Notes under the pieces: generated by a model
Seen by the model: the letters and a program-made list of their open reading frames with translations, nothing else
What the model was told of the DNA's origin: nothing
The model's database searches: none
Assembly (NCBI GenBank): GCA_000442125.1
Contig: KE546977.1
Span: 248,001 to 312,000 of the forward strand
Direction of reading: 5' to 3'
DNA length: 64,000 nucleotides
Source of the DNA: Opeltia flavorubescens
Lineage: Eukaryota > Ascomycota > Lecanoromycetes > Teloschistales > Teloschistaceae
Made by a program: the position numbers and the translations under genes
In this document: piece after piece, positions 1-19,650 of the stretch
Numbering within the stretch: position 1 is the first letter of the stretch
Layout of the letters: each line of letters opens with the position of its first letter

Positions 1-1556
1 ATTATCAGCTTTGCTCTTAATGCAGTGTAGCTACTTAAAATTTTCGAGCAATGAAGCTACTCGAGCATCTGCTCCAATCATTTCTATTGGAGACTAAATT
101 TGACCGCAGAAATCTCTCACTTTGCCACAAACCTTTTCATCTTTCACTTTGGACCAAGCTATCCACAGTAAAGCTCATATGCTTCGTGGACCATAACATG
201 GTAGTCTCGTCTCTCCGCCACAAGTAGCTGCTTCTCTAGAACCCTTTTAGCCTGCCAATTGAATACTCCTATTACATCAGGCTTTGCGTTTACCAGCCGA
301 CGGTTGAGGACAAAATCCAGATCCGGCGAGGAATCGGGATTTCCTCTACTCATTCAGTGGGTAGGGGACAATGATAGGAAATCTAGGAATAATCCAAATA
401 TGAGAAATCGATACACCAACTTCAAAATAACCGAGCTGATATACTGAACCGCATGGGATACTCGAATGTATACCGGCAAATTTGGGGAGTTTGTTGATGA
501 CGAAACTGCTAGCATGTGAAGCCCTCTACAATTCTTTTAGTCTTTCCATCGAAGTATACTTATTATTTCAACGTCTTTGCGCATCTGATTACTCCTGATA
601 CCATTTCAGGATGTCTAAGTGTTCATTAATAGTTTTGATATGATACAGTGGTATATCCGTCAACTTCACCGATTATATCGTGGTGGCCGGAGAATGGATC
701 TGCAAGGATATCTTAAGTACTTATACCCCACATTCTGTGCTCATAATCCTGCTGCGTGGTCTGACTACGCTGATAGTAAACTTGGTAGATCGATAATGTC
801 TCTTCCCAGCATTTCTTATTTCGGACCTGATTGGCAGTGGTAGGCAACACGTTCAAGGACTGTTGGTCTTGACCAATGCTCGTCATCTAGCCAGGCTGTT
901 GATACTGCATTGAGATCGGTGCAAAAATCTACGGAAAATGATCGCACCATCAACTGTTGTGTATCGGTGTCGCGCACGTTGGCCAAAACCAGATTGACTA
1001 AACAGGAGCATGGTAAGCTCTCCCAATTGACGGGTTCTACACGCTACCGCCGTGGGGTGGCTCAAGCAGCTCCTCGAGGTACGGATATTCATCGAAAAGA
1101 AAAAGGATAAAAAAGATAGAGCAACAGTAGGTAATAACGCAGCCTAAAAGGCCACTTCGGCGTATATCTTCGTCTGTGGAGAAAAACCCGGAAAGGAAAA
1201 ATCTTTCCGAACATTTTGGCTTCCTCATCATGCCTAAGGACTGGATAAAGTATGGTGAGATTCTCGGGAATCGGACAAGTGATATCTCACTGGACGGTGT
1301 TGGGTCCAGGACAGCCTTGGATGAACGAGGCTGAAGGATCGAACACACATATCTGGACCGAATGGAGCGCGATACCATCAAATGAGATTATGGCTCCTTC
1401 ATCCTTCCATTCCTTCATGCACCTGTGATGCACAAAACCGAAATGGGGCACTGGCTCCCGCGAAAGGCTGAGATTCCCCTTTATCATTCAGTAATCTGGT
1501 ATCATTCTCTCCTTGCTCTGAATCAATCTAGGATCTCTTTGANCTCGATTGTTACG
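1..1556. other. No gene recognised
   Basis: Only short open frames without recognisable protein features occur here, on both strands. The last 130 bases are open in frame with the downstream glycosyltransferase but contain an ambiguous base at 1543, and probably form its 5' leader. Confidence 0.5.
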
Positions 1557-2876
1557 ATGAACGACCATGAGATGCAGAGAAAGCTCAATACTCCCCTTCT
1601 CCTGCGCCAGATCCGTACCGAAATCTTTGTGTACTTTTATCGACTCGTGACTACTGCAGCTGGAAGGACTTTTCTCGGCTTTCTCCTTCTCTATTTGCTG
1701 CTCATACAAGTCTGCCGACATACCTTCTATCGCGATCCTACCTCTGTTTTCTTCGATCCATCGAGAGCCTACAACCATATCTACTCCTCGCAGCGTCAAC
1801 AAGAGGCCGACAACTTCATCCAAACCTTCAACGACTCCAGCCCAAGAGATAAGGACAAAACGGTCACCTCCGGATATACAATGTGCCTCGGTGTAGCTAC
1901 CGTGGAGCGGTCTGATGAACAGTATATTCGCTCAGCATTCGGCTCCTTGATGGAAGGCCTCGCAGAAGATGAGAGGAGGAACCTATACACCATTGTGTTG
2001 ATCGGCCACACCGAACCACAGCGTCATCCAATCTACCACGAACCATGGTTAAGAGGACTCTCCGATGAAGTTCTTACCTACGACAATCTGACCACGGAGC
2101 AATTCGATCTCCTGTCGGAGTGGGAAAAAGAGAAGGATTACCGGAGGAAGGCCATATTTGATTACACCTTCCTCCTTGAGAACAGTATCAATTCAGGGGC
2201 GTCCTGGATTGCTATGATCGAGGACGATACTCTTGCCGTGAGGGGATGGTATACACGTACGATGAATGCGCTGGATGTAGCTGATTCCAAGAGTTATGAG
2301 TGGCTATACCTCCGCCTGTTCTTCACTGAGCAATTCCTTGGCTGGAACAGCGAGTTCTGGCTCACATACCTGTTAGTGTCGATTTCTATCGTTGTCGCAG
2401 TCGGGCTATCACTGTTGATTCTTCGTGTGCTTAGTCTCCATAGATCCATTTCTAACTGGACTATCCTTACCGCTTGCTTCGTCTACACACCAGCCTGCAT
2501 ATTACTGTACTTCATGGCTGGACGAATATCCATGCGTCCACTGACCCCCGGTGTCCACGAGATGCCAAATTTTGGCTGCTGCGCGCAGGGATTTGTCTTC
2601 CCTAAAAATTCCGCAGCTCGTGTGGTCAGTAAGCTAAAAGAGATCAAGGGCGGAGGATTTGTAGACATGATCATCGAGGAATGGGCGAATGCGGAGCAAC
2701 TCACACGTTTCGCCGTTATACCAAGTCTTCTGCAACATATCGGTGATCATAGCTCCAAGGGCGATGGTTTTGCACCGAATCAGCCTATGTCGGTGGCTGA
2801 GACGATATTCAACTTTGGTTTTGAATTGTATGAACGGCGGGGAGATCAAGTAAGACATCCTGTTGGCGGCGGATGA
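1557..2876 (+). CDS. PGAP4-like Golgi glycosyltransferase (fungal type)
   Basis: The 439-residue product resembles the fungal branch of the PGAP4/TMEM246 family, Golgi enzymes that in animals add GalNAc to GPI anchors. An N-terminal signal anchor lies near residues 38-52. A GT-A-like region follows, with the acidic metal-site candidate IEDDT near residue 221. Two hydrophobic segments near residues 265-290 and 300-321 form a hairpin inserted inside the catalytic domain, which is the hallmark of PGAP4. The start chosen is the ATG at 1557. An open frame continues upstream to 1428 but crosses the ambiguous base at 1543 and looks unlike protein. The last eight residues follow a possible GTAAGA donor, so the true C-terminus could be a small extra exon. 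The substrate in fungi is inferred, not shown. Confidence 0.7.
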   Translation: MNDHEMQRKLNTPLLLRQIRTEIFVYFYRLVTTAAGRTFLGFLLLYLLLIQVCRHTFYRDPTSVFFDPSRAYNHIYSSQRQQEADNFIQTFNDSSPRDKDKTVTSGYTMCLGVATVERSDEQYIRSAFGSLMEGLAEDERRNLYTIVLIGHTEPQRHPIYHEPWLRGLSDEVLTYDNLTTEQFDLLSEWEKEKDYRRKAIFDYTFLLENSINSGASWIAMIEDDTLAVRGWYTRTMNALDVADSKSYEWLYLRLFFTEQFLGWNSEFWLTYLLVSISIVVAVGLSLLILRVLSLHRSISNWTILTACFVYTPACILLYFMAGRISMRPLTPGVHEMPNFGCCAQGFVFPKNSAARVVSKLKEIKGGGFVDMIIEEWANAEQLTRFAVIPSLLQHIGDHSSKGDGFAPNQPMSVAETIFNFGFELYERRGDQVRHPVGGG

Positions 2877-3552
2877 GCACCCATCCCGAATATGGGAGTA
2901 TCGCTGGACTCTGCACGAGGATTTTAGACTTGGCCAATCTCGTCGTGGCGCCCATCCATTTCGTAGAGGATCCTATCAGTCGAGACAGCATCAATAACTC
3001 AAAGTGCAGTCTAGGACTGCATCGGTAGGGCTTTGTCATTCGACTTTAGGACCAAAAGAATTTACGTACACCTGTACGTTACTCACTGCTGCGAAAAAAC
3101 ACGTGCGAGCCTCAACTTCCACTTCACATGAACTACTAATCTTGCTCTACCATTGTCCAACCTTTACCAGATGCCCATTTCTCCGACTGCGTAACTCGTT
3201 ACATCAGGACTACTCAAAGGCGTCGAAGAGTCCCATGCCAAGAATCGTGCTATTAAAGTAGCTGCTTCTGTGCAGTCAGGTTGAGATTGAAGGATGCATA
3301 CCCTATATACTCTATACTTTACACGCCCCATCTATCCGCTCTCGAATTACCACCTTCATGACATGCAGCTCCAGAAAGTCGTTTCCGTGGGACCCTAAGC
3401 ATATGGCGTATGTATTATATGGAACGATTATTTGGTTCATTGACTTGGACACATCCAGTACTTCCACATTATTTCCCCCAAGAAACCCCCCAAGAAATGG
3501 GATCATCCAGCATAGGTGAAGCGTTCCGAACACAATTGGTTTGATATACTCG
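2877..3552. other. No gene recognised
   Basis: Intergenic space between two genes that converge here, so it holds both 3' untranslated regions. I see no coding pattern. Confidence 0.5.
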
Positions 3553-4754
3553 CTACTTCCTGCTCGCATAGAATCTTTCGATTGCTTTATCGCCGTTTAT
3601 GTTTCCAATAACCTGAAGACTCTTATCTGTAGCCATGCTTTTTCCATATGTATTGCTCCTCGTCAAGCCGCTTGAGCCGGCATAATCTGAACTGTTCTGA
3701 TCCCCTGCATGCTGCGTTGCGTCAATCGTGGAAGAGACCACGTCGTAAGAATGGCCTGGGCGATGTTCATTCGGCGTAGATCCAGACGTGTGTTGCAAAC
3801 TACCGGAACCGCTGTTCTTGGTAGCAGAGGTCGTCACTTGCGCATGGTTCGATGCACTAGTGTTGGATCTCTCAGCGGCTGAGTTTCCAGGATAGCCTGC
3901 GTACTGCAGGGAGTTGAGAGTGGCTGGTTCATCACCCCAGCGGTGGCCGAGCCGATCGACGGTGGTAGCTGCCCCAGATTGTAGATCATGCCCTTTTGGA
4001 GAATTATTCATGGTCCATTGAATTAGCCAATTCTCATACCTCGCTCATCTGGAGCCTTTTCCTGCGTCTCGCGCTGCGATCTGACCCTCATTGGAATCTC
4101 TTGACCACCTAAATAGCGTGAAGGCTGCAACGACCCATCAGCACCAATACTATGACTGGAGGGGCACTTTTATGTCGTAGCCTGGTAATTTTGTCTGGTC
4201 TGGTGGAAGGGAGCTGAAACTTTTTGTCGTTGGGTTCAGAGGTGGGCTAAACTCACTGGAGCGCTTGCGCCACAAGAAGGATGTTGTGACATTCTGTCGC
4301 TAGAGAAGGTATTGATACTTTCTTGAATGTTGAGAAGGAGGTCGGTATTGACAGCACCAATGCACAGCCTTAGGGTGCTTTTTTCTCTTTCTAGCTTGTC
4401 AAGGCTGATAAGAACCTCTTTCTCAGCGAGGCCGTTCAGGATAGACCAATACTTCCACACAAGGTTTCGAGTATATTTGTTCACCAGCTCCTGGAGCAGA
4501 TTGTATAGAACTTGAGCTTCTAAGAGGGTGGCTTGGAGCTGACGATGGATTGCGGGTGACCAAAGAGATTCGTGCCTTTCGATTAAGGTGGTCGTTTGAA
4601 TAAGTTCTTGGACTTGTTTGAGATGACCTTTGGTTCGCGACGATGTGTTCTGAAGCGCTGAACATACCTCATCAAGATGTAGTACGATCTTGATGCCGTA
4701 GGCAGCTAGCTGAGTGGCACTTGCGAGGACACCAAGCGTTTCAATTCCCGACAT
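3553..4754 (-). CDS. SesA/HeLo-like effector with C-terminal amyloid-motif repeats
   Basis: Three exons join in phase: 4754-4257, 4124-4040 and 3992-3553, giving 340 residues. Residues 1 to about 150 are mostly helical and begin MSGIETLGVLASATQLAAYG, the style of fungal NLR-associated N-terminal domains (SesA, HeLo, NACHT-N). In known members these helical domains execute or trigger cell death. A Ser/Thr/Asn-rich tail follows with three 22-residue repeats starting at H211, H275 and N308, plus a weaker one near 251-269. Each full repeat has H/N at position 0, A/S at +11 and G at +16, usually followed by N or D, which is the spacing of both HET-s prion-domain repeats. The second intron (47 nt, GTATGAG...GGCTAATTC...AAAAG) is strong. 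The first (132 nt) is less certain. The divergent ankyrin gene at 5741 carries the matching motif. The cell-death role is inferred. Confidence 0.68.
3592..3945 (-). repeat. Tandem HET-s-like (HRAM) amyloid motifs, protein-level
   Basis: This stretch encodes residues 211-328 of the SesA-like protein. Aligned without gaps, the repeats begin HRWGDEPAT, HSYDVVSST and NTYGKSMAT and end SLQYAGYPG, ATQHAGDQN and SLQVIGNING. The glycine falls exactly 16 residues after the first H/N in all three, as in HET-s R1 (N226/G242) and R2 (N262/G278). The small residue at +11 corresponds to HET-s A237/S273 in the amyloid core. The nucleotide repeats are too diverged to be a recent duplication. Confidence 0.65.
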
Positions 4755-5740
4755 GGGGGTCTCTTATTTATCAGCTGCTTGAGGTTCAGCCTCATCCAAA
4801 TCGCTGAGAAGAGTTGGCTTGATAACTTATCTTCATGTCATACAGGTCGTGAGGCTCTTCTCTATGATGAGTTGAGTCTGACATGCATGACCAATAGTCC
4901 ACCCAATCAGCAGCGAGGAAGCTGTAGCCGGGCGTCATCATTCGTAGCCTGATTGCAGCTCATTGGCTTGTTCCTCCTCAGCCGGAAGCTTCAATGTTGT
5001 GTTGAAGTGATCCGAAGAACAAAATCTCGAGTATCCCCGCTTGAGAAAAGGATGATCTATGGAAGTAGAAATATTTCAGGGCCCTATGACGCTCAATTCA
5101 ATAGCAAGGCTCTACTAATAATATGGCACTGACAAATCGGACAACTCGATATGAGACCTTTAAATCACCTTCCATTGCAACCGAGGGTCGATAGGGGCTC
5201 TGGCCAGACCCTTTCATATTACTAAATACAATCTCACTTGCTAAAACGATGATTCGCTGGCCCATTAGTACTAGCTGCTACAAAGGCAGATGAGCTCTGA
5301 TTATGATACGAATTGCATGCGTCGAGCACACTCATTGGGCTCTACACGGTGCACACCTCGGTTTCTTATTATTATTTATGCTAGCATACTGCATGAAACC
5401 ATACTTTCCTAGAGCGCAGGCGGATGTCGAAGTAGTTCAGTAGGGTTTAGCGTGTGTTGACATAACAACGCTTACAATGCGAACCTAGGCACCCAGGCAA
5501 AAGCAGGCAAAAGTAGGCGGCCCCACACACTTCACTCAAGCACTTTTTACGCTCTCGATTTCGATCCGGAGCCTGCATCCCTCCAGTATGTTCCCTAGTC
5601 TCCCAAGCGCTTATTTGCTGCCTTGAAAATGATCGAACATTCCATCAGCCTCACAGGCATGCATCATATCAGCCTTATCTAGATCCTTAGCTGCACTATA
5701 AGGCTAGCACACGACATAAAGGCATTAGACTCGAATAATC
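4755..5740. promoter_or_regulatory. Shared divergent intergenic region of the amyloid pair
   Basis: This 986-bp region separates the divergent SesA-like and ankyrin genes and must hold both promoters. No specific operator is recognised. A small imperfect repeat of AGGCAAAAGC type (about 2.5 copies) lies near 5498-5522. No coding pattern is visible. Confidence 0.5.
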
Positions 5741-7293
5741 ATGACCCCACACCAGGAACCACAAGGTCACATCTATGGAGTCAACGCTTCGTATGGTCAA
5801 TCCATGCTGCATGCTGGAGATGTCCATGGAAACATAACCACGACAAACAGTAAATGCCCTCCACTAGTACAAGTTGGAAGACTTCATGGCTAATCAGAAC
5901 GCTCCACTGGCATTTGATAGACTATGAAAAAGAGCTGGGCGGAATATTCTCCAAATTGACCGCGGGAGAGCGCCAGAGGAAGCTTCTCGAGATCGCTCGC
6001 ACGGGACAGGAAATTCGCTTGAGATTTATGCTCCGACTGGACATTGACCTCGAGTATAAAAGTCCAGTGGGCAACACAGCTTTACACGAAGCACTCCTTC
6101 ATACGAAACCTGAGTGTGCTAGGCTTCTCATCACTCACGGAGCGGACGTCAATAGTTGTGGAGAGAAGGGATATACTCCGCTGATCTTGAGCGCTGAAGA
6201 CAATGACCAAGAGACCACAGAACTACTGCTGAAAAATGGCGCAGTTGTAGAAAGTTACGACTACCAAGGTTTAAGTCCACTAATGAAAGCATCTCGAGGT
6301 GGACATCAGACAATAGTTCACAATCTAGTCGAAAAAGGGGCCAACGTCAAGACAGTTGATATGTACGGATGGACAGCTTTGCTCTACGCGGCCAACAATG
6401 GCCACCAAGATGTCGTTCGCGATCTGTGCAAATACGGCTCTGATTTAGAAGCGAGAGGACCAGATGGACGGACAGCGCTCATGCGAGCTGCTCTCGAAGG
6501 ACATGCTGATGTAGTCGCTCTTCTACTCGAGGTGGGAGCAAACCCTCATGTAAACACGTACCAAGGATGGACACCGTTGCTTGACGCGGCAGATCGCGGA
6601 CACTTTTATGTTGCCCAGAGACTACTCCCTAGACGAATAGATCTAGAGGCGATGGGAGGTTCAACAAAGTGGACAGCATTGTTACGAGCTGCTTGCCGCG
6701 GACATACTGACATGGTCACCTTACTACTCATAAGAGGGGCGAACCCTCAGGCAGCAACTTCTGGGGGATGGACATCTTTACACTTCGCCTCAAAGCGTGC
6801 GGATTTGGCCGTCTCCGAAGATCTCCTTGAATGCCAATNTAATCTATCGAGCGACAATTCAGAGGAATGGCAGGCAGTGGTACAAGTTCCTGATAGCGAT
6901 GCTTTCAACGTAGTCGCTCTGCTGCTCAGATCAGGAGCTAATCCTCAAGCAAAGACTCAAGGCGGATTGACAGCACTAATGCTGGCGGCTTCGAACGGTT
7001 TGATCGGTGTCGTACAAGAACTCCTACGCCACAGGCCCGGTATTGATGACACGGACAGACATGGACAGACAGCCCTGATGTATGCTGCGCTCAATGGACG
7101 CAATGACGTGGCTCAAAAGCTCTTAGTCAATGGTGCAAATCCAGCGATGAAAAATATCGCGGGACAAAGACCTGAACAGATAGCCTTTGAAGCAGGACAT
7201 GAAGCCTTGGCTGGAATGCTACAGGAGGCAGCAAAGAGTACGAAAGCAGAGAAGGTGTCATATAGGCTCGAAAGACTCAACGTCAACCAATGA
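5741..7293 (+). CDS. Ankyrin-repeat protein with N-terminal amyloid motif
   Basis: Exon 1 is 5741-5849 and exon 2 is 5921-7293. The 71-nt intron has a GTAAAT donor, a CTAAT branch site and a GATAG acceptor, and the product has 493 residues. Exon 1 encodes almost only the motif at residues 10-31 (HIYGVNASYG, then QSMLHAGDVHGN): H10, S21, G26, D27 and G30 match the spacing of HET-s repeats and of the neighbouring gene. A short helical linker (about 38-75) follows, then roughly 11-12 ankyrin repeats to about residue 475. The first is clear at TALHEALLHTKPECARLLI. No P-loop, NACHT or NB-ARC domain is present, so this would be a repeat sensor coupled directly to an amyloid motif. An ambiguous base at 6839 affects one codon. 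Ligand recognition and signalling are inferred from architecture. Confidence 0.78.
5768..5833 (+). repeat. Single HET-s-like (HRAM) motif, protein-level
   Basis: Encodes residues 10-31 of the ankyrin protein. Position 0 is H, +11 is S, +16 is G, +17 is D and +20 is G. The effector's last repeat has N, S, G, N and G at these positions. HET-s R2 also has S, G, N and G at +11, +16, +17 and +20. Confidence 0.65.
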
Positions 7294-8748
7294 CACCGTA
7301 CCTCCGTCCCTTTCGAATCAACGCGCTAGGCATGTCGAATTTTTATTCATTGTATGTACATCTCAGTACACGATTTCTTTATGCAAGCAAGCCTCTAAGA
7401 TAGATTGGGACAAATTGGCAACGCTAACAATGCTCCGAGGTATACGTTAGATATAGTGCTCCCCTATACTCCTTATACTCCTGTCAAATTTTTATTTGTA
7501 TACTCCTCTTTGTTCCTCTCCTACTCCCGACCTTCCCTACTCCCAGAAGTTGCTGTCACAATACACAATATATCGACTATAAGAACCATAGATGAAGAAG
7601 CTCGAACAAAACGAAGNGAAAATCCTTTACAGCAGGAGATCCGGGTATAATAGAGACTAAAACGATAGAAAAAAGACTATATACCTAGTAATCTACCTTT
7701 ACGATGAAAAGTTTTGTCGCGCTTACCCATACAGTAAAAAAGCAGAGTACGACCTAGCGGCCCCCGTCAATACTCATTAGTATACAACTTATGTTTCGGC
7801 TCTAAGTATGTATAAAGGATCGGGAGACGAATAGATTAACAAGATCAAGCCGAATTCTAGAAGTGTTACATAGTAGAAGCATCAAAAAAACCTTGCTACC
7901 CCAACTTCCAGCCTGCAATTAAGCGTCCAGCTGGTTTGAAACCAGAACGTCAAGCCTAGGACACGGATTTTTGCGTAGATAATATCTCATGAATGCCGTG
8001 AAATCCAATCTAAAGTGACGGAAGATCTGTACATCGATTATAACTTCTCTTCTCTAGTCAATGATCCGAAGACATGCCATGAAACCAAGCCGGAGGTGGG
8101 CCTCATCAACGTTGATCTCAAAGAACATCCAGAGCCAAGAAACTCCGCTACGCTGGGACAGCTATGGCAGGTTATCTCCAAGGAAAAAATGGGTTAACCT
8201 AAGGCTCATCTATAAATTGATAAGGCTAATAAGAACCCATTAGGTATGCTTAGAGCTCCATTCATTCACGTGGAACACATCAACGATACACTTGTGAATT
8301 GCCATTATTCCCTAGATGCCGTACCCTCTGATCAAAGTCACGAAAGGCCATTAGCCACACCGAAAAGCGCTTTTCAATATCATCAAGGGCCTTCCTCGTC
8401 AATTGAATCCGATACACACAGCACAGCTGCCAGTGAGGGTACTCCGATGCATACTGATTGGCTGTCCGAGCGTACAGCCTTGCACGAAACATTATCTTCG
8501 ACTCCACGGTTGTGATGGCCACGGCATCACACGTCCTAGGACCCTTCAACTATCGAGATATCAGTGGGGTTGCGTAGTTCGTCGCCTTTTGGAAGCCTAT
8601 TAGTAGTCGAGTCATTTCGAGTTGGAAAGTGTAGGTTGGACTATGTCCTCTCCGTTATTCTGATCTCTTACCACTGACCGCTCTGCTCAAGCTGTCTGAG
8701 CAGCCTCTACAAGAAGGAGAGATAGATGCGCACCTGACGCCAGGAGTG
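7294..8748. other. No gene recognised; AT-rich patch
   Basis: About 7430-7910 is visibly AT-rich and rich in TA dinucleotides compared with its surroundings. That would fit decayed repeat DNA altered by repeat-induced point mutation, but no element family can be named. The remainder (8000-8600) holds short overlapping frames with no protein features. An ambiguous base lies at 7617. Confidence 0.35.
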
Positions 8749-9687
8749 TTAACCCATTTCGTATTGACACGCACGGCCATCAACCTCATTGACGTGTATC
8801 TCATCAAGTTCTTGCTGGCCTGACGTATCTGCTTTGACCGTGCTCATGGACGCTATCATTTGGAATTGTCGATGAATTTTCGATTCTTTTTCGAGCTTCA
8901 GCTTGAATTTCGTCGTCTGCCGTTTTTGGAAGTAAAAAGCGACAAGCGCCGCACATGCTGCCGCTAACATCGGTATGCCAATACCAGCCCCGATGGCTAG
9001 CTTTTCCGATTGGTCACAATGCGTCTCATGGTCTGCGATGGCAGTACGGGTTGTACAGGGAATTGGGTTGGGTGACCCGGTCGATCGTGTCTCCGAAATT
9101 ACGGTAGATGTCATGGTAAATGTACGAGCGCTTGACAGCGTGCAGTTTGGATTCCGCCCGCCGGAAGATCGGTCGAAGATGAGTTCTGCAGACGGGATCG
9201 GAAATGGTTGATCTGAACCGTTGTTCTTGTAATGGCACCGTTTTGTCGTGATGTTGAAGTCCATGCAGCAAAAGAGGTCAGACCAGCCTGCATTGCTGCT
9301 AACAGTTGGTGCCTGAGTAATAACACAGCCTCCGCCTCCGTTCTCTGGCCAGCACGCGAGTATGAGCTCTTTGGCTGCCCGACGTGATTCAGGGTTCCTC
9401 GAATTAAAAGACGTACCATCTATACACAACCTAGAACAAGCCGGACTTGACCAGGTTGCATCAGTACAGCTTCCTCGCGTCACGGATTGAACGCCGCCGA
9501 CTTGGAAACAGAGACCGTTGCTAAGACAAATATCCTTAGAACCGCAACAGTGACTGTCCGCCGCTGATGCGTCACACGGAGTATCGGCTGTTTGTTGATT
9601 TCCATCGGGATAATAGCAAGCTTTCACCGCACTGGCGACGCGGACCAGTTGGATGGTCAAGATAAATATCTCCAACAAGCTCATCAT
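8749..9687 (-). CDS. Cysteine-rich single-pass membrane protein
   Basis: A 312-residue product encoded without introns. A signal peptide (residues 1-20) precedes an ectodomain rich in cysteine: CYYPDG, CCGS, CLSNGLC, then SCTDATWSSPACSRLC at 74-88, and a second CC cluster at 140-141. A Ser/Thr stretch (about 185-215) leads to a transmembrane helix at 231-253 (after KLAIGAGIG), then a basic stop-transfer QKR and a cytoplasmic tail of about 55 residues. This topology is typical of fungal wall or surface sensors, though no ligand can be given. The cysteine framework is shared with the gene at 53568-54560, so the two are paralogues. The insert at residues 95-130 is poorly conserved and could hide a small in-frame intron. 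Confidence 0.7.
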   Translation of the reverse strand: MMSLLEIFILTIQLVRVASAVKACYYPDGNQQTADTPCDASAADSHCCGSKDICLSNGLCFQVGGVQSVTRGSCTDATWSSPACSRLCIDGTSFNSRNPESRRAAKELILACWPENGGGGCVITQAPTVSSNAGWSDLFCCMDFNITTKRCHYKNNGSDQPFPIPSAELIFDRSSGGRNPNCTLSSARTFTMTSTVISETRSTGSPNPIPCTTRTAIADHETHCDQSEKLAIGAGIGIPMLAAACAALVAFYFQKRQTTKFKLKLEKESKIHRQFQMIASMSTVKADTSGQQELDEIHVNEVDGRACQYEMG

Positions 9688-10512
9688 ACAAAATCTTACG
9701 AATTCCCCAAATCCAAGTCTGGAATCGAGAGATGGGAGCGAAAACTTGTAAGGGCCCCATCTAAAAGGCTATGAAGTGGAACACTTATAGTCGCAGAAAT
9801 TCTCTTGCCTCATGAGGTGGTGTCTGCATGCAGATCTTGGAATGGAGTAATTGGAGCGGAAGAGGGACAAAACTCATTCCATCAAGGATGGATGGCAAGT
9901 TTGCAGCTCTACTCTGCAACAAATGAAATCTGGCATGCGTGGCACATCACTGAGTGCTCAGCCAATTGTCTCCGCAAATGGCGACCAGGACGCCGTACTG
10001 AGCGTCAACATTGCAGCCAGGCTGCAGTTTAATGGCTGTTTTCTCCGAAATCAAAGGCTTCAATGCTATGCTTGACAGAGGCAGAGATCTACCAAGCACA
10101 ATCAGAGAATGTACCTACTCGAGATCCGAAACAAGGCAGCCTTGCCTCTTATTTCCGGAGCTGATCCGCGGCGTAGTCAGGAGAGGACAGCCTCACGAAA
10201 ATTGTCTGGTCCAGGATCGACATCGTGAAGGAACCTCGTTGACATACGAAGCAATGAAAGGGTCCGAAAATTGATCTGAATTTTTCCGAGATGTTTGAAA
10301 ACGAAATCACTCAATAATTGAGTTCGGTGGAAAGTGCTTTACATACTCACATTATTTCGCTACACGTCGTAAAACGCTCTTCGACTCACTGTGTCCGGTT
10401 TGTCGCTCTCCATTGAATATCGTGCAAGTTGAGAAATCGTTATATGGGTCGACCAGCCTTCACTGTAGACCTGATTACCAAAGGCACAACAGTTGGTTTA
10501 TCCTCGCAGAGA
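9688..10512. other. No gene recognised
   Basis: Lies between the promoter of the cysteine-rich membrane protein and the 3' end of the C2H2 gene. Short frames only. Confidence 0.45.
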
Positions 10513-13500
10513 TTATGCAGTCGTCTCTTCAGTGTACTGTTTCCGATTCCCCGACCTCGTTTTCCCAGGAAAATCTTCGTTGGGATGCACAACACGCATA
10601 TGCCGTGTCAAAGCGTCCCTTCGTGAGAACATCTTCTCCTCGACGCAGTATTCACATCGTATCTTTTCTTTTCGGCTGTTGTGAATCGTGTCTTCGTGCC
10701 TCGTCAGATCATAAGCTCGTGAGAATAACGTATTGCACGGCTTTCCCGTGCTTGGGTTTATCTTTCCGCATTTATATGGCCCCGACTGATTGGTGGGGTG
10801 CTTTGAAGAAGTGGATGTATTCCCAAATGGTGAAGGCATCCGACTCAATATCGGAATCGTGTCTTTCGTTTGACCTTCGGACGAGTCTGAATAAAATTCC
10901 CAGTCCTCATAAGCCTTTGGGACGACAGCAAAAGCAATCTCTTCCATGTGGCGACCAATATGTCGGGCGCGATTACGCGTACAAACAGATGATATACGTT
11001 CTGGACAGAATAGGCACATGGAAATTGATCGGTAAAAGAGACCAAAATGGGCCTCCCGCTCGTGCTTCACCAATTGCTTGCGAGAGGTATATGTCCTCGC
11101 GCTCTGTGTACACTCCTCGACTGTACAAGAATAGGGTCGAAGATCAGACATGACATGCTCCCTATTCGCAGGTGTTAATCACGCCAACTCAGCTAGAGAA
11201 CTACCTACTGCCACTGGCGGCGTCTTTCAACTTGCACGAGTTCTCCACATATGTCACAATCAAACGTCCTCTGCATTTTCAGATCGACTGGAGGTGGAGG
11301 AAGACCACGCGGAGAGCTGGGCGGAAACTGAGGTACATTGTCATCCTGTTCACAGGGATCGAGCCTCGGGCTTCCACGTAAAGGGCTGTTCATACTAGAT
11401 GAGCGTGAGTGCATAGACGCAATTGACGAAGGTCTTCTGCTCGGAGGACCTCCGTTCCAGAAACCTTTGGGCTCCGAAGGTTCATCATAAAGTACTGGTA
11501 TGCTGTTGGTCTTATCGTATTTGGGCTCGTAATTTTGGCCAAGCCATTCCTTGGATATGTAAAAATCCAGCGTCTAAGCCTACGTCAGTCACTCAGCCAA
11601 CTAAAAGGCTCATGTAACAGCAGTGTACCTCTTCAGATAGAAATTTAGGTTCGGAATTTTGCCATTGAGATGTGTTCCAGAAATGTTCAAATTCCTCCTT
11701 TCGGGATATCACCCTCTTCGCGGTTTCGGATGGGCATTGCTCCCAGTAATCGTGGCCCTGCTCATTTGCTCGAAACTATAGAGAATTAGACAAGCATTTC
11801 AGTGAGTGATTCAGTAGAGGGAAAACGATACATCAGTCTGATTCCATCTGCTCATACGGCTCTGTAGTCGTCTAAACCGTATTTGAAGAGCAGGAATTTG
11901 GTATGATTTACCAAAGTCAATCTGAAATCGCACAGAGATATCTCTCCAGGATAGATTTTCCTCTTCTCTTAGCTTCCATAGAAATTGCTCCTCGCCGTCA
12001 AGGTACACTAGATTCGGATTCGATTGCTTTTTACCATTCTTGGCAGTGGACGTGGTATTTTTTTGAGCTTTTTCCGACGTTGTTGAAGCTCGACGAAGAA
12101 CCTGGAAGTTATGAGCCGGTAAAATTGGCTCATCTCTGTGTGCTTGCTGTTCCCTTTGAATACGCGCATTTTTCCTCTTGTGCAAAGCCTCTGCTCTATC
12201 AAGATTGGCTTCAGCCAAACGGTGAGCCAAGTACGCCGGTATATGAGGGAATCTGTCTTTGATATTGCGATAGTAGATCTGGGCTGCTGCTCTAAGAGAA
12301 GCGAATTCTTCATCTATGTGGAGGTTGGCACTTCGATATGTCGAGTCCGGAGCCGTCATTACGTGGACATTACGAAAGCTCTTGATCTCCTCCATCTCTT
12401 GAGCAACCATAGACTCATCAGCTTGTTCCAAGTCGCGCTTCGCAGTGACAACAGATGGGACCGCGCTTTGATTAAGCCATGCTTCCAGAGGTGAAGTACC
12501 ACTATTCCAGTCCATCGCCGCCAGAACCGGAGGTTCTGGGCCTTCACCCTCGTTAATCTTCCGAACCTTGGCCACGCGATCAGTGGTATCGTTCAGCTGT
12601 GAAAAGTCTCGCTTCGATGTGGGCGTGGCCGATTGAACATTTGCAGAAACAGTGACAACATCGGCTGGCTCTGGTCTAGCACCGTAAAGCTGCACATCTT
12701 CCTCGAGTTGCTGGCGAGTGACGAAGTCTTCCGACACTGCTACACGATCGAAAGCGTCTTCTAGATCGTTCATTTCTTGAAAGAAGGTCAAAGAGCAAGT
12801 ATCACAAGTCATTTGGTCGGGGTTCTTGGAACACATGAACCCAATCCCGGTACAATTAGGCTGAGGGCATTGCCCCGAAATCCTCCGTCGTAGATGTTGC
12901 ATGATCATTGACATCGTCAAACACGCACCCTTCTCGATACGTCGATTCCAGTGGTTCTGGTTGACAATGGCTCTTTGGCTCATGTCTATGATATGAAAGC
13001 TACCGTTGAGGACTTTCGACTCTCCAGGTTTGTTTTTGAACTGCGTGCGGAGAAAGCCTTCAAAGATCTATGGTATATAGTTAGTACTTCGATATGTCGA
13101 AAGCCATGTGATAGTACTCACTTCCCAATGGCAGAAGTACTCATAAGGCAAAGATCTGAACTCTCCCAAAGCATTGGTGAACTGGATGTTTGAATCGTGC
13201 AAAGAACCGGGGTGATGTGAAATTTGCTCCTGTATCTGCAGTACAGCTTGATACGTTCGCCAATCAGCTTGCGTCAACGCCTGCAGACGATCTCGAATCT
13301 CCTGTGGAAAGGTCTTCACGAAAGTCAAAATGTGGTCCGCAATTGTTCTCAAATTGAATACTGCAGCATTCGATACATCGATCTTATCTGATAGTGTCTG
13401 CATGCTAGCCTGAGCCGCGGATGCTGTGTTGTTCACTCTGTCTTGCAGGCCCTGGATAGCGCTCTGTACCTCCCTTCTGCCGATTTTGTGTTCTTCATCT

Positions 13501-14166
13501 CTCGCTTTTGACGCGTCATACTCTCCTTTCATTCGGTTATGCATGGATGACAGTGTCTGGCTATGCACATGTCAGCCTTTGTCCATGCCAGCGAGTATTT
13601 ACGCGCGTGCTACGATATTCGATGCAAAGGAAATCGAGGTAACTATGTCCAGCCTCTGGCAGGAGAAGGATGAGGCTGTACTTACGAACAATGGGTCGCC
13701 AGTAGCAAATTAATGCTAATTTGTTTTGCGGCTACTATCGCGCGCAACCTCTCCACCTCTTTTCCAAATGAGACCGCCCATTTAGTTTTCCGGCCAAAGT
13801 TATTGAGAGAGCTTCGCTGTGCCCAAGGACCAAGGGATTCCTCATAGGTCTCAAGCTTTGTCATGAATTCTTGTAGATGGATCTTGCAGGCCAGAGCCAT
13901 GCCCCGAATAGCATTGACATGGCCAAGATTATCCTCCGTCGGCTTCAGGGCTTCCAGGTGCTGCAGTATATGCTTGAGGCCTTCGAGCTCGACGACTGCA
14001 TCCTGGTATTGCGAAGATGCTCCACCCGTATCTTTCAGTGCCTTGGTTATTTTTCTGATCAGGTCTGTTGAACATCATATGTCAGTGAAGCTCATGCACG
14101 AACTCACATCTACTCACTGATGGTATTGATGAAGTCGCCGACTGAGAACCCAAAAGCGGGTGTCAT
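10513..14166 (-). CDS. NLR-type N-domain, ubiquitin-like, SANT-like and C2H2 multidomain protein
   Basis: Seven exons join in phase (14166-14118, 14064-13686, 13560-13122, 13067-11832, 11775-11629, 11573-11209, 11161-10513), giving 1087 residues. Residues 1 to about 110 match the fungal N-terminal domain found on STAND/NLR proteins (start MTPAFGFSVGDFINTI). Coiled-coil-like helices follow. Residues about 290-345 resemble the fungal ubiquitin-like domain (from FEGFLRTQFKNKPGESKV). A Cys cluster (CPQPNC...CDTC) comes next, then a basic, disordered stretch and a SANT/Myb-like helix bundle near 640-697 (FLWKLREEENLSWRDI). C2H2-type units follow at about 856-910 (CDICGELV...RRRQWQEHV), 1002-1032 and 1041-1064 (CEYCVEEKMFSRRDALTRH). 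A regulatory or stress-signalling role is inferred. Two adjacent genes cannot be wholly excluded, but every junction keeps frame. Confidence 0.7.
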
Positions 14167-15566
14167 TCTTGTGAAGTGGCATCACAATACTGATGACAAC
14201 TCTGGAGACAGTTTCTTTGAGAATGGGATCGAGAGTGTAGGGAGTTTAGATACCCAAATGCAAAAGTGGAAGCCTCACGAGGCTATGTAGCAAGCATGTC
14301 TTGGCTAGCATTCAGAGCCACTGGAGCAAAGACTGGTAATCCCAAGCCTCGTTAGCCCTTCAAATATACGACTAGGGATGAAGTCGATATACAGAACAGA
14401 GGTAGGCATTGCCAATAGTATGTTACTTACAGGGTAAAGCGATTGTGGAAGATGTCCAAAGCTACCGCTGACGTAGAAGAGCTATGCTTTCACCCGAAGT
14501 TCCCCCACCCACTTTCCTCACTCGGGCATTTTCCAACCACAAAAGCTGTACCTTTTGGGTTCTCGGGTTCTTGGCAAGACATCGACGTCTTACAATATCG
14601 CGATCCAACACATCCAGCAAATCATCGTCTCACCGTCCATGGATGAAAGTCAGCCAAGCTGATGTGCATAAGATGAATCTGGTGTATGAACATGATTCAA
14701 GCCCGCTTGGGCATATGAATAAAAAGAAGAAACGCGAGAGAAAGGCAAGAAAAAGACGCAAAAGCCTCAAGCGACTATTTGTTGCTGCAACTACTTTGTC
14801 ACGTTTATCGGTACCAAGACATGTGTCAGTATACTTGAATACCAATGGCAATAGCTGAACAATGGCTTGCAAATCTATTCAGAAAATCCAGCCTCCTGTA
14901 CCGGAAATAAGAGAACCAAGAAACGAGGTTTACATAGTAAGATCACTCCTGCCAACCTCTTACACTTACTGGCAGAAATCTATATCAGATCCTGAAGCCG
15001 CCTTTTTCAGCGGAAGTTTAGCCGGCACTGAGGCCCTTTAAAGCGTTCTTCATCGAAAAAATTCAAGAGTCCGGCAAGAATGCTTCTTCCCTACCCGTTT
15101 ATAGATCTCTACACAGCTCAACTTCAAAGCAATTATGATCCCATGGAATACAATACCCTATGCCATCATCCTGTTCAGAGTGAAATTAGATACATTCTAC
15201 CCAAACCTAAATCCACTATAAAGCCCCCATTTAGTGCAGAATTTTCAACCCCTAATAACATTATACAGTCAGTTACTAAAATACGCCTTGTCCCAAGGTT
15301 CTACTGTCGCATCAATAGTCGCATTCTAAATTCTTACAAAGAAATGTCTGACCACTCAAGACTAGAGAAAACGCTTCGATCAAATCCCTTTATCTATTGC
15401 TCGCTTTGTCTAAACAATGCCGTTGTCTCCTCCGACTGCTTCTCTGCGCTCTCATAATCAATGTTGCAATGACCTAGCAGCCTATTTCCTTTCCTACCCA
15501 TTGACCGATCTTTTGCGGGGTAGAATACTTCTGGATTTTCTCAGTCAGGCCATTCATTCGATACAA
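14167..15566. other. No gene recognised (divergent promoter region)
   Basis: This 1.4-kb region lies between the divergently transcribed multidomain gene and the first kinase gene. It contains short frames such as 14484-14858 that lack recognisable features. The part nearest 15566 is probably 5' leader of the kinase. Confidence 0.45.
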
Positions 15567-17174
15567 ATGGCTACCTTGGCTAAGATTCAGACTGTATTCG
15601 CGTTCGTCAAGGGGTCGCGGCATGATGACAAGCATGACCATCTTGTACAACCACTGATACGCCATCAAAACCCTCGTCTGAATAACCCTGGTGTTGCGCC
15701 AGCGCCGCCTTTACCACCTCGTCGCGTCCTTCTGAAGAAAGTCGATGAAGATGCAGAACAAAAAGATGCTAATGGTCAAGGTAAACAGGTTCCGAAACTT
15801 ACTAGATTTGGGTATATGCTTGCCGGCAAGAAAGCTCGGGATGACAAAGTGGACGAAAAATCTGCACTAACATGTCCCCAAAGAAAGGCAGAGGAGAAGA
15901 GTATGAACTGCAAAAGCCCCTGCCCAGAAGCTGTAGGCAAAGCAGACGCAACGACCGCCCTAGTCCTCAACCCAGAAATTAACCTCAGCGTAGTAAAACT
16001 CCTCGTCCCCCAAAAGTCCACCGACACACTCCGATCCATAGCAAGCATTCACAGCAATAACAACAAACTAAACAAACCCACCAAGAAACCCCGTACCCCA
16101 ACCCTCCCCCGAATCCCACATCAACGCATGAAATTCCTGCACCGCCTCGGTTCCGGCGGCGAAGGCCACTGCGACCTCTTCCGCCTGCACAACCCTCCCC
16201 ACACCCTCCTCGCCGTAAAAACCCTAAAAGCAACCCCAGAGCTCATCCGGCACAAGGAAACCAAAAAGCGGATCCCGCTCGAAGCCCACATCCTTCAGGA
16301 TCTCCTACCGCCGCACCCGCGTATCGTCAGGTTGCACGATTACATCTGCACCCCGCTCGTGACGAGATTGTACTTTGAGTTTTGCCCTCTGGGCGACCTG
16401 CAGGATCTCATCGATGCTTATTTTACGCGGGATGCGGTAGTGCCGGAAGGGTTTATATGGCATGTATTCGCGCAATTGGCGGATGCGGTGCATCATTTAC
16501 ATACCAAGGCTAAGGATGAGGAGAATGGTAAGCATATCCCCATATTACATCGGGATATCAAACCTAATAATATCCTTCTATCGCGTCCTGGATGCAGTCT
16601 TCTCCCCTCCACCTCCTCCAACAAAGATAACAACAATATTATTATTATCGGCAATAATACTCACAGCAGCAGTATTCCTCGGTTTCAATATCCAGACATC
16701 ACGCTCGCAGATTTCGGCGTCGCGGCCCCGCTCTCCCCCTCCGCCCTCACAAAACCCTTTGGTGTCGGCACGATGATATTCCAAGGTCCGGAACTGCCGC
16801 TTCAGGACCAAGCTTCAGACATTTGGTCCATGGGCGCTGTCATCCACACGCTAGCGATTGGAAGACCGCCGATGTGTAGACGGCCGGAGGGGTGGAGCGA
16901 GAGTAGGTGGGAATGGAATCCGAGATGTAGGGAGGTGTGGGATTGTACAAAGAGTGGATATAGTGAAGGGTTGAAGGAGGTGATGGGAGGGTGTTTGAGA
17001 TTCAAGGGTGAAGAGAGATGGTGGAGTGGGGAGGTGAGGGAGATGGTTGGGAGGGGGAGGAGGGAGTGGCGGGCTGGGAATGAGGGTCGAGATGGGGAGC
17101 AGAGGTTGGAGGAGTGGGCGGTCAGGGGCCACGAAGGAAGGGAGAAGGGAGTAGTAGGAGGAGGCAGCGGATAG
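15567..17174 (+). CDS. Serine/threonine protein kinase (NEK-like), paralogue 1
   Basis: A 535-residue product when started at ATG 15567 (MATLAKIQTVFAFVKG). In-frame sequence upstream looks like leader. The N-terminal 170 residues are low-complexity and basic. The kinase domain starts near MKFLHRLGSGGEGHCDLF with a glycine-rich loop, the VAIK-type lysine in LLAVKTLK, the catalytic loop HRDIKPNN and the metal-binding DFG in LADFGVA. A Ser/Asn-rich insert (around genome 16590-16680) separates catalytic loop and DFG. All catalytic residues are present, so it should be active. It shares the phrase VVPEGFIWHV and general layout with the convergent kinase at 17959-19650. The coding strand turns from C-rich (about 15960-16400) to G-rich (16850 to the stop). 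Substrates are unknown. Confidence 0.8.
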   Translation: MATLAKIQTVFAFVKGSRHDDKHDHLVQPLIRHQNPRLNNPGVAPAPPLPPRRVLLKKVDEDAEQKDANGQGKQVPKLTRFGYMLAGKKARDDKVDEKSALTCPQRKAEEKSMNCKSPCPEAVGKADATTALVLNPEINLSVVKLLVPQKSTDTLRSIASIHSNNNKLNKPTKKPRTPTLPRIPHQRMKFLHRLGSGGEGHCDLFRLHNPPHTLLAVKTLKATPELIRHKETKKRIPLEAHILQDLLPPHPRIVRLHDYICTPLVTRLYFEFCPLGDLQDLIDAYFTRDAVVPEGFIWHVFAQLADAVHHLHTKAKDEENGKHIPILHRDIKPNNILLSRPGCSLLPSTSSNKDNNNIIIIGNNTHSSSIPRFQYPDITLADFGVAAPLSPSALTKPFGVGTMIFQGPELPLQDQASDIWSMGAVIHTLAIGRPPMCRRPEGWSESRWEWNPRCREVWDCTKSGYSEGLKEVMGGCLRFKGEERWWSGEVREMVGRGRREWRAGNEGRDGEQRLEEWAVRGHEGREKGVVGGGSG

Positions 17175-17958
17175 CTGCTTTTGATAGAGGTGTATTCGGT
17201 ATGTAGGTATGCAGAATTATTGGTCTTGAAAGGGGAGTCTTATGGTAGCAGTTGCATCTGAGTCTTCGCAATGAGGTTCCTTACCTACGGGCCCTTCTTC
17301 CAATTTCAACTCCTCAAACCTCTCAATCTGCGAGAACGAAAATTCGGCATCAAGCCTCCAAAATCGATATTTCTGCTTATTTTTTTATGCATCCTTTCTG
17401 ATATTAAGAATGCTGGAGACCACTCCTACCGAGTCCTTGTGTTATTTTAGGATAGAAAAGAACCTAGAAAGGGCTAGGTACTGGCTGAATCCCACAAAGA
17501 AACAATAGGAATCTAAGTTATTCTGAGATCTTGGCATGTCACTCTTTAATAGAAAATTGTAAGGGGTTGGCAGGAATGAATAGACAGCTTGAACATCATT
17601 AGGTTCATACAATACCCACCATCTTCTATGAACGTTGGGTTTACGACTATATCAAACATGAATTTTCTCGCTCATTCATAAAAAATTGTATATGAATTGG
17701 GTGCGATTATAATACCAGGACCACGAAGATGTCCTTCCAGCATCAAGTTCTAATCCTATGTATTCACAAAAGAAGAGATTCAAAAGCAACATGATCGAAA
17801 CTCATGTATGCCAAGACCGTCGGAAGTTGAGTATCCTAACATTAAATTGGGGAGATCTAATAAGAAAAATAAAGGTTTGCTTGAGCCTGTCAAAAAGAGT
17901 AGGTGAGGTGCAGAAGACCCTTGCAAAAGATGAAAGCCAAATGACCTACCGATCCAAC
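17175..17958. other. Convergent 3' intergenic region
   Basis: Space between the two convergent kinase genes. It is AT-rich and should carry both 3' untranslated regions. No further gene is seen. Confidence 0.55.
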
Positions 17959-19650
17959 CTACCCATCTTCCTCAAACCCCTTCGCCGCTCCTTTCTTCTT
18001 CCTCTGCAGACTAAAATCCATCGGATCCGGTTTACCCGATTTGGCATGATTCGGCCATTCACCCAGATTCCTCTCTACACCTCCTTCAGCCAACCAAATA
18101 GTCCTACCCCCTTCCGCCTTCAACACCCCCGACAACCCAACCGGTCTCATCGCTCCCTTTAGACTCAACCACTCCTTCAACGTCTCCTGTAACATCACGC
18201 TATAGCCTCTCCAGGAGATATCCCAAACCTTTCTCGTCCTACCGTCGCATTCCCATTCTTTACTCGTGCGAGGATCATCCTTTGGTTGGACAGCAAGTGG
18301 CGGATAAATGAGCGCGAGATAATGGATAACGGCACCAGCGGACCATACGTCGGAATCGATTGTATGATAAGGGAACTGCGGGGACTGCCAACAAGCCGTA
18401 CCGAGGAAATGGTAGGGCCCGCCAGTAACAAGATTCGTCGTAGCGAGGCCAAAGTCACCGAGTACGATGTCAGGGTACCGGTTCCCGGGTACGAACTTGA
18501 GGAAAACGTTGTCAGGCTTGATGTCTCGATGTACGATAGGTTGCCAATTCGGTGGCGGAGGACGTTCTGGGTCCATGTAGTCGAGCAAACCTGTATGCAG
18601 GTAAGCAGTCGCAGCCGACAATTGAGTATGGACGTGCCAGATGAAACCTTCGGGGACTACAAGACCTCGATAAAGAAAGTAGAGGGCCATGTCGAGCAGG
18701 TCACCGCAATCGCAGTAGTCCATCCAATAATGGCATTCGGCAAGTGAAGTGTTGAAATGGTATAAACAGGGCAGTCGTTTATGGCCATTGTTGATGATGT
18801 TCCGTAGGATATGGGCTTCTTTCGGGATGCCGTTGGTGTATTCAAACGACTCTCGGGTCTTCTTGAGGACAAGGAGCTTACCCGTTTTTCCGTGCTTGTG
18901 CAATTCGATTCTTCCAAAACCGCCTTCGCCGATCCTCCTAATGAATGTGCAGTCCCTCTCGAAATTAGACTCTCGGATCTTGTACACTCCATTGGAGGAA
19001 ACACTACCGTAAAGAGTAATGTCGGATTCCTGCATGGGTATCTCCTTGGATAGTTTGCTGGGTCTAGGATTTGGTTGAGGAACTTGCTGGCGATCTAGGT
19101 CTTCTTGGGAGCTCGGACTGGCAGAGCTCGGAATGTCGGACACTTGAAATGAGTACTGACTTGGCGTCTTCTCTAGCTGGTTCACACTATAGATTGACCC
19201 TTCTGACGAGGCTTTCGATGGACCCCCAATCGGACCTTTTGACGGAATCGTATCATGACCTCCATTGATGGGATAATCGTCGTCCGAGGTACGTAGGCGA
19301 CTCTGTAAGCCAAGATCCCCAGATGCGTCAAGGTCAACTGAACTCGCCAGGTGGCTCTCATAGACATTATCAGTTGCCTGACGGGACAGCTTTGTTCGGC
19401 CGTGTCTTTCCGCATGCCCAGCGCGAGAGGCTTTCTTCGATTCAACTTNATCATATTTCCCACCATTGCCAGTAATTCGAGTGTTGTTGATACGCTGGGG
19501 TTCCAAAACTACCTGTTGCCGTGTTTTAAGGCTGAGCTGTTGGCTGCTCTCTAACGATCCCTGTTCAACTTGATCCTGATCCGAAGAATTCTGTCGCGCC
19601 ATGTCAGCCTTGGGCTTCCGTAAACCTTTCAAAAAATTTCCGATACCCAT
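17959..19650 (-). CDS. Serine/threonine protein kinase (NEK-like), paralogue 2
   Basis: A 563-residue product from ATG 19650 (MGIGNFLKGLRKPK). The frame extends 10 codons further upstream but without an ATG. The N-terminal half is Ser/Gln-rich and disordered. The kinase domain has the glycine loop IGEGGFGRIE, a lysine in LLVLKKT, HRDIKPDN and LGDFGLATT, so it is predicted active. The C-terminus is lysine-rich (RKKKGAAKGFEEDG). It is oriented tail to tail with a related kinase, sharing VVPEGFIWHV and a similar region after DFG (GTACWQSPQ versus GTMIFQGPE). An ambiguous base at 19449 makes one codon NAA, which should be rechecked as one reading would be a stop. The function is unknown. Confidence 0.8.
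   Translation of the reverse strand: MGIGNFLKGLRKPKADMARQNSSDQDQVEQGSLESSQQLSLKTRQQVVLEPQRINNTRITGNGGKYDXVESKKASRAGHAERHGRTKLSRQATDNVYESHLASSVDLDASGDLGLQSRLRTSDDDYPINGGHDTIPSKGPIGGPSKASSEGSIYSVNQLEKTPSQYSFQVSDIPSSASPSSQEDLDRQQVPQPNPRPSKLSKEIPMQESDITLYGSVSSNGVYKIRESNFERDCTFIRRIGEGGFGRIELHKHGKTGKLLVLKKTRESFEYTNGIPKEAHILRNIINNGHKRLPCLYHFNTSLAECHYWMDYCDCGDLLDMALYFLYRGLVVPEGFIWHVHTQLSAATAYLHTGLLDYMDPERPPPPNWQPIVHRDIKPDNVFLKFVPGNRYPDIVLGDFGLATTNLVTGGPYHFLGTACWQSPQFPYHTIDSDVWSAGAVIHYLALIYPPLAVQPKDDPRTSKEWECDGRTRKVWDISWRGYSVMLQETLKEWLSLKGAMRPVGLSGVLKAEGGRTIWLAEGGVERNLGEWPNHAKSGKPDPMDFSLQRKKKGAAKGFEEDG

Follow-up and report, generated by a model that had tools for sequence, protein, structure and literature searches.

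Can a fungal amyloid death signal be sent by a receptor that has no nucleotide switch? In the literature covered, every fungal amyloid receptor described carries a NACHT or NB-ARC switch, thought to cluster the amyloid seed, and so do the published partners of amyloid effectors (PMC3321046, PMC9815663, PMC5485727). The question is raised by a stretch of 64,000 nucleotides from the ascomycete Opeltia flavorubescens (assembly GCA_000442125.1, contig KE546977.1, positions 248,001 to 312,000; hereafter the window). In it, a minus-strand gene for a protein with amyloid-like repeats at its C-terminus, the effector, lies head to head with a plus-strand gene for an ankyrin-repeat protein, the receptor. 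We consider it probable that the pair is a two-component amyloid death-signalling unit of the HET-S/NWD2 kind, whose receptor consists of a motif resembling those of the HRAM family (r0) followed by ankyrin repeats and lacks the nucleotide switch. The unit is not a one-off: it is conserved, recurring on contig C16 of the same genome and in relatives.

Both gene models were built from splice signals and give an effector of 340 amino acids in three exons and an ankyrin protein of 493 amino acids in two (coordinates in Table 1). In a protein database search, P0002 was identical to the effector model throughout, and P0001 matched the ankyrin model except at residue 343, whose codon contains an ambiguous base in the window. 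The splice junctions of both genes thus exist as joined reading frames, and the first ankyrin exon is present in P0001, the single joined protein found for that gene. Both entries come from a source labelled lgn. RNA assemblies are the most likely origin of the joined forms, because the lgn and ena sources do not look intron-aware: other relatives from them (e.g. P0004 and P0008) seem to run on into the first intron. As a caveat on this origin, the longest contig listed for P0001 has 8,254 bases, which is long for such a message; that for P0002 has 1,669.

The two proteins share a motif with a fixed register: H or N at position 0, an aromatic residue at +2, A or S at +11, G at +16 and D or N at +17. 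Position 0 falls on residue 10 of the ankyrin protein and on residues 275 (repeat R3) and 308 (repeat R4) of the effector; effector residue 211 (repeat R1) follows the register too, except for Y at +17. The initial annotation had described a divergent effector/receptor pair with a common motif and a series of effector repeats in register. The pair and its motif are upheld, as are the repeats at 275 and 308 and, apart from its Y, the one at 211. The segment at residue 240, with S at 0, +2 and +17, A at +11 and G at +16, was not counted as a fourth repeat.

We compared these similarities with chance in several ways. Aligned without gaps over 20 residues, the ankyrin N-terminus and the effector tail reached a best score of 39, against a mean of 20.4 and a standard deviation of 4.8 for shuffles (1 of 500 reached 39). 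A matrix trained on six effector repeats only, three from the window gene and three from its orthologue in Letrouitia, placed the ankyrin exon directly below the three training repeats among 59,025 six-frame scoring windows, with 19.7 bits; the next stretch scored 6.9. We then applied this matrix to 227,400 scoring windows from 55 mutually overlapping sources, which include, each with flanks of about 1.5 kb, 30 of the at least 50 NPHP3_N loci, 10 of the 24 PF17111 loci listed and the 4 PF17107 loci of this genome. The first-exon motifs of both receptors and two repeats of the second effector, that of contig C16, scored 18 to 27 bits, and the best unrelated stretch 6.9. A converse matrix, built from the receptor motifs of three other loci, ranked the ankyrin motif first in the window (50.7) and R3 second (27.8); an unrelated stretch was third (10.5), R4 fifth and R1 seventeenth.

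The motif can be set beside the published HRAM motifs, which are about 21 residues long, with G at position 19, N, Q or H at position 3 and hydrophobic residues at positions 5, 8, 10, 16 and 18. HRAM effectors carry two repeats separated by a loop of 6 to 18 residues, and the neighbouring gene carries a single N-terminal motif (PMC4518210). In our alignment, G stands at position 19 in 10/10 motifs and H or N at position 3 in 9/10, with K in one repeat of a distant relative, P0020. Because the aligned motifs were chosen by eye, these two counts hold partly by construction; the matrix tests are independent support. Positions 5 and 18 are hydrophobic in all ten motifs listed, a list that leaves aside the longer repeats of the second effector. 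The loop between R3 and R4 has 12 residues and that of the second effector 6 (our own count), both inside the published range.

Receptor and effector motifs also differ from each other in the published direction, in which receptor motifs (r0) are poor in charge and rich in S and H relative to effector repeats (r1 and r2; PMC4518210). D, E and K make up 5 of 68 residues in four receptor motifs and 27 of 156 in nine effector repeats, and S plus H make up 32% and 20%, respectively. Two types, r1-like and r2-like, can be recognised among the effector repeats of the two paralogues and of Letrouitia. When each receptor motif was scored against the repeats of this genome, an r1-like repeat from the effector of its own pair came first: 39 against 30 and 26 for the first pair and, by a small margin, 49 and 45 against 44 for the second. 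When R3-type repeats are set against R4-type ones in register, paired charges are opposite in six cases and like in one (four repeat pairs, two with one common partner). This complementarity is only suggestive, because an offset of +2 gives five and none.

We regard the motif as HRAM-like and assign it to no subfamily. The locus resembles HET-S/NWD2 and the other HRAM pairs (HRAM1-5; Podospora, Fusarium and others) in its HeLo-like effector domain (the known effectors have HeLo or HeLo-like domains), its repeated C-terminal motifs, the single N-terminal copy in the adjacent gene, positions 3 and 19, the loop length and the charge-poor receptor motif. It differs from them in that no NACHT or NB-ARC was found in the receptor, the effector has three clear repeats instead of two, positions 8 and 10 are often polar and PF11558 gives no match. 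HELLF/FNT1 of Podospora anserina (HRAM5) likewise has a HeLo-like effector domain, and Q at position 16, an HRAM5 trait (PMC4518210), occurs in 5/6 effector repeats listed here. Unlike this locus, its receptor FNT1 is a nucleotide-binding oligomerisation domain (NOD)-like receptor (NLR; PMC7889193), and position 16 is L or A in the receptor motifs found here.

The initial annotation had called the effector SesA-like; its N-terminal domain instead matches the HeLo-like family in profile-profile comparison. We compared 12 of 20 effector family sequences with 8 of 10 fetched PF17111 loci (24 genome matches listed) using hhalign, which gave a probability of 95.8% (E 8e-9, 139 columns). A scripted repeat gave 96.1%, with 0.7% for a reversed control and at most 0.5% for 30 column shuffles. 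PF17111, named PigL_N, is treated as HeLo-like in PMC9815663. The effector itself is absent from the 24 PF17111 matches listed in its own genome. Against SesA the probability was 2.6%, for a comparison with only two SesA sequences of the 4 loci listed, and the SesA model PF17107 touched 2 of 12 effector family members (best E 0.014). An AlphaFold2 model of the effector is all helix, with four helices. Its most hydrophobic 19-residue stretch, residues 7-25, would suit a membrane-entering helix. Elsewhere on the same contig, a PF17111 match stands directly before an NPHP3_N NACHT in one frame of 445 amino acids (C13:97335-98456), an ordinary HeLo-like NLR.

The ankyrin protein was proposed to lack a NACHT or NB-ARC domain, and this was borne out: Pfam searches matched ankyrin families only (E down to 3.5e-66) and neither NACHT nor NB-ARC. 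The genome itself is rich in such domains, with exon-level matches to NPHP3_N (at least 50), NACHT (at least 22) and NB-ARC (at least 4). Among the matches listed, none lies within 120 kb of either pair; the nearest NOD match is 153 kb from the window pair and 124 kb from the C16 pair. Some NACHT matches contain internal stops (C22:297131-297628, C10:1414843-1415226, C14:1140872-1141024 and C12:1285132-1285401) and are candidates for introns or decayed NLR genes. The ankyrin protein could also serve an NLR encoded at some other locus, acting in trans as its adaptor or amplifier. The many NACHT loci leave room for such a partner, and signalling between non-adjacent genes is suspected in PMC9815663. 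We think this account quite unlikely, given the distances above and the scores of the 30 NPHP3_N loci, where the effector-trained matrix reached at best 6.7, far below the motifs.

Other fungal systems share parts of this architecture. The sesA/sesB/het-eN (sigma) and PP-motif systems are likewise effector/receptor clusters with a common N-/C-terminal amyloid motif, and het-eN also has ankyrin repeats. The sigma and PP motifs are taken to differ from the motif of this pair. In fungal NACHT-ankyrin NLRs the ankyrin repeats are the likely ligand-binding part; unlike them, the receptor here has no nucleotide-binding switch that we could find. The sigma and PP systems differ in the same respect, as their receptors are signal transduction ATPases with numerous domains (STAND proteins) that have a NOD (PMC3321046). 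A short frame on another contig (L001:1492-1596, on C7, plus strand) passes the Pfam cut-off for Ses_B (PF17046) with 32.2 bits and looks PP-motif-like by eye, so that the genome may also hold a PP-type system. In the open-access literature, bioRxiv not covered, we found no receptor made of a motif plus ankyrin repeats without a NOD in the text available. NWD2(1-30) fused to green fluorescent protein assembles and seeds without NACHT, outside ligand control (PMC4344463). A NOD is therefore not always needed for seeding, but control would have to come from elsewhere.

The same arrangement occurs a second time in this genome. Across 34.4 Mb on 23 contigs, effector exon 1 matched only itself and a locus on contig C16 (64% identical), and the ankyrin N-terminus recovered its own two exons together with an ankyrin gene at that C16 locus (47% identical over residues 37-81). 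There, a tandem effector/ankyrin pair occupies C16:1211111-1213997 (L017:3111-5997) on the plus strand, the effector upstream, with no NOD found. In the effector tail, a GHRY...SQHAGD repeat occurs twice and an RHTY...VQVLGN repeat once; four three-exon and two two-exon splice models fit this gene. The ankyrin gene opens with a motif exon and has six in-frame splice models, of which the preferred one gives 432 amino acids, with a 61-base intron just before YE, a site as in the first pair. Its exon 2 matches ankyrin repeats only in Pfam.

We compared window positions 1-20,000 (frames of at least 50 amino acids) with 15 kb around the C16 pair at a cut-off of E 1e-4. Three exons and nothing else matched, namely the HeLo-like, the motif (E 7e-5) and the ankyrin exon; the effector repeat tail did not pass the cut-off. 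It is the two-gene unit, and not the surrounding neighbourhood, that the two loci have in common. The paralogues are 66% identical over 148 codons of the HeLo-like exon and 36% over 370 of the ankyrin exon, so that the effector domain is conserved and the likely recognition part diverges. For the HeLo-like exon, nonsynonymous divergence (dN) is 0.21 and synonymous divergence (dS) 2.43, near saturation, and no usable dS could be obtained for the ankyrin exon.

The initial annotation also expected the motif and the adjacency to be kept in relatives, and both were found, in Blastenia as well as at the C16 locus. The effector had 19 matches in the protein database, and the three named ones (Letrouitia leprolyta, Blastenia crenularia and Pyrenodesmia sp.) are all Teloschistales, Lecanoromycetes. 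In Blastenia crenularia, the ankyrin orthologue P0021 and the effector P0005 are neighbours, because their locus tags, Q9170_005178 and Q9170_005179, are consecutive and both are listed on a contig 29,111 bases long. P0021 is 65% identical over its full length, with 25/30 identical residues in the motif region and 291/455 in the remainder. The Letrouitia effector P0003 retains R1, R3 and R4 (12/22, 15/22 and 16/22 identical); its spacers are 19/42 and 5/11 identical and its HeLo-like domain 126/148. In Pyrenodesmia, P0007 (491 amino acids, partial) has HeLo-like domain, motif and ankyrin repeats in a single gene model. Its ankyrin part starts, with MTDNQ, where the receptor begins, so the model may either have merged a tandem pair or reflect a true fusion. 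P0020 (jgi, 344 amino acids) is a more distant effector relative (25% identity) with two tail segments in register, one of them having K for H.

These relatives bear on whether the ankyrin gene is simply a decayed NLR that lost its NOD and its signalling with it. Such a loss is easy to imagine because ankyrin-repeat NLRs are common in fungi (PMC9815663). However, the layout without a NOD is present at two loci and in the Blastenia and (partial) Pyrenodesmia models, the frames are open, a joined form exists, and in Blastenia the motif is more conserved than the rest of the protein. Decay is thus a very improbable explanation.

Several results weigh against an amyloid signalling pair. The HET-s/HRAM profile match that the initial annotation had counted on did not appear: PF11558 (HET-s 218-289), the sole HET-s motif profile run, matched nothing in the pair or the genome, in a genome search that matched none of its controls either. 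This miss is not decisive, because PF11558 recognises only 38/155 HRAM proteins in the published set (PMC4518210). Pfam has no match for the motif and none anywhere in the effector, and a motif profile compared with solved structures had no match. Position 16 is mixed, positions 8 and 10 are often polar and no R or K stands at 15. A matrix of four receptor motifs performed less well over the 227,400 scoring windows: R3 scored 26.5 bits, and an unrelated stretch at an NLR locus (L050) scored 16.4, above R4 (4.1) and one repeat of the second effector (3.1). That stretch has no G at +16 and resembles an ankyrin repeat. The charge complementarity between R3-type and R4-type repeats ties with the +2 offset given above, and the C16 effector has repeats longer by one residue. 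Confidence in the AlphaFold2 model is low (mean predicted local distance difference test score 68), and the folds that it matches are helical bundles of a generic kind. The Blastenia effector model, of 200 amino acids, ends upstream of any repeat tail; adjacency could be checked by locus tags in this one relative only, and for the Letrouitia effector the protein database search gave no ankyrin neighbour. Finally, NWD2(1-30) is insufficient in mammalian cells (PMC4344463).

Some of these points would fit a conserved pairing or docking motif that does not fold into amyloid, attached to a HeLo-like protein in a non-killing role: the hydrophobic pattern is HRAM-like only in part, and no profile (Pfam, PF11558 or solved structures) matches. 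A docking motif would, however, leave aside the split into r1-like and r2-like repeats across the two paralogues and Letrouitia, the HRAM loop length and charge trend, and an effector domain that matches a family of predicted pore-forming domains. We consider it unlikely.

Under the amyloid signalling reading, for which we infer amyloid folding, cell death and ankyrin gating, a ligand would bind or cluster several ankyrin proteins, and their crowded r0 motifs would fold into a beta-solenoid seed. This seed would template the R3-R4 tail of the effector, which would release the hydrophobic helix at the N-terminus of the HeLo-like domain, so that it enters the membrane and kills the cell. With no nucleotide switch, a low concentration of r0 and shielding by the ankyrin array would have to maintain the off state, and the threshold would therefore be set by clustering or dose.

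The same parts could be wired the other way. In the main rival account, the ankyrin protein is a brake: its single r0, joined to a bulky array of ankyrin repeats, keeps the effector tail capped or sequestered, and death follows once the ankyrin protein is removed or is bound by a product of an invader. A lone motif and the failure to find an oligomerisation domain that could drive seeding suit a brake, and genes kept together in two orientations fit an effector/inhibitor pair too. On the other hand, the charge depletion of r0, seen in four motifs, is the published trend of presumably self-stacking NLR motifs (PMC4518210), for which an inhibitor would have no need, and in the NWD2 system the N-terminal motif activates (PMC4344463). 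We hold the brake to be improbable, though it is the rival to be taken most seriously.

A broader claim, about which we are slightly more doubtful than confident, is that lichen fungi have, in the ankyrin-only receptors, a class of amyloid sensor that needs no NOD and belongs to a conserved, duplicated two-gene unit, in which repeat clustering alone, with no nucleotide switch, nucleates the death signal. If true, ankyrin-only partners could explain some of the HeLo-type HRAM effectors without an adjacent NLR, which number 57 in the published set (155 - 98; PMC4518210). A conserved receptor without a switch would test whether repeat clustering or dose suffices for prion-like death signalling. 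If confirmed, the unit would be a simpler form of fungal immune signalling and a natural minimal system in which to study the maintenance of off states. It also suggests a search rule for the partners of HeLo effectors without an adjacent NLR, namely a motif exon followed by any repeat array.

Table 1. Coordinates of the effector/ankyrin pair in the window (position 1 is the first nucleotide of the window).
Feature	Position	Strand	Comment
Effector exon 1, HeLo-like all-helical domain (predicted)	4257..4754	-	Residues 1-148 coded by 4311-4754
Effector exon 2, linker	4040..4124	-	Splice model identical to P0002
Effector exon 3: S/T/N/G/Q-rich tail, amyloid-like repeats, short C-terminus with aromatic residues	3553..3992	-	
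Effector repeat R1, residues 210-231, H at 211	3883..3948	-	Extra upstream repeat, Y at +17
Effector repeat R3, H at residue 275, r1-like	3691..3756	-	Closest to r0 among the repeats of this effector
Effector repeat R4, N at residue 308, r2-like	3592..3657	-	Matches third repeat of the second pair's effector
Divergent intergenic region, start codon to start codon	4755..5740	.	
Ankyrin receptor exon 1 with N-terminal motif	5741..5849	+	tblastn finds a relative at the C16 locus (E 7e-5)
Receptor motif r0, residues 9-30, H at 10	5765..5830	+	
Ankyrin receptor exon 2; ankyrin repeats ~6070-7248; no NOD domain found	5921..7293	+	Ambiguous base 6839

Single ambiguous bases occur in the window at 1543, 6839, 7617, 19449, 24017, 33365 and 45535, and that at 6839 lies inside the ankyrin frame. 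Among the neighbouring frames, 1560-2876 (plus strand) has a weak match to MGAT4 and 10516-11178 (minus strand) weak C2H2 zinc-finger matches, both under the curated cut-offs; 11814-13067 (minus strand) matches the ubiquitin-like ULD_2 above its cut-off.

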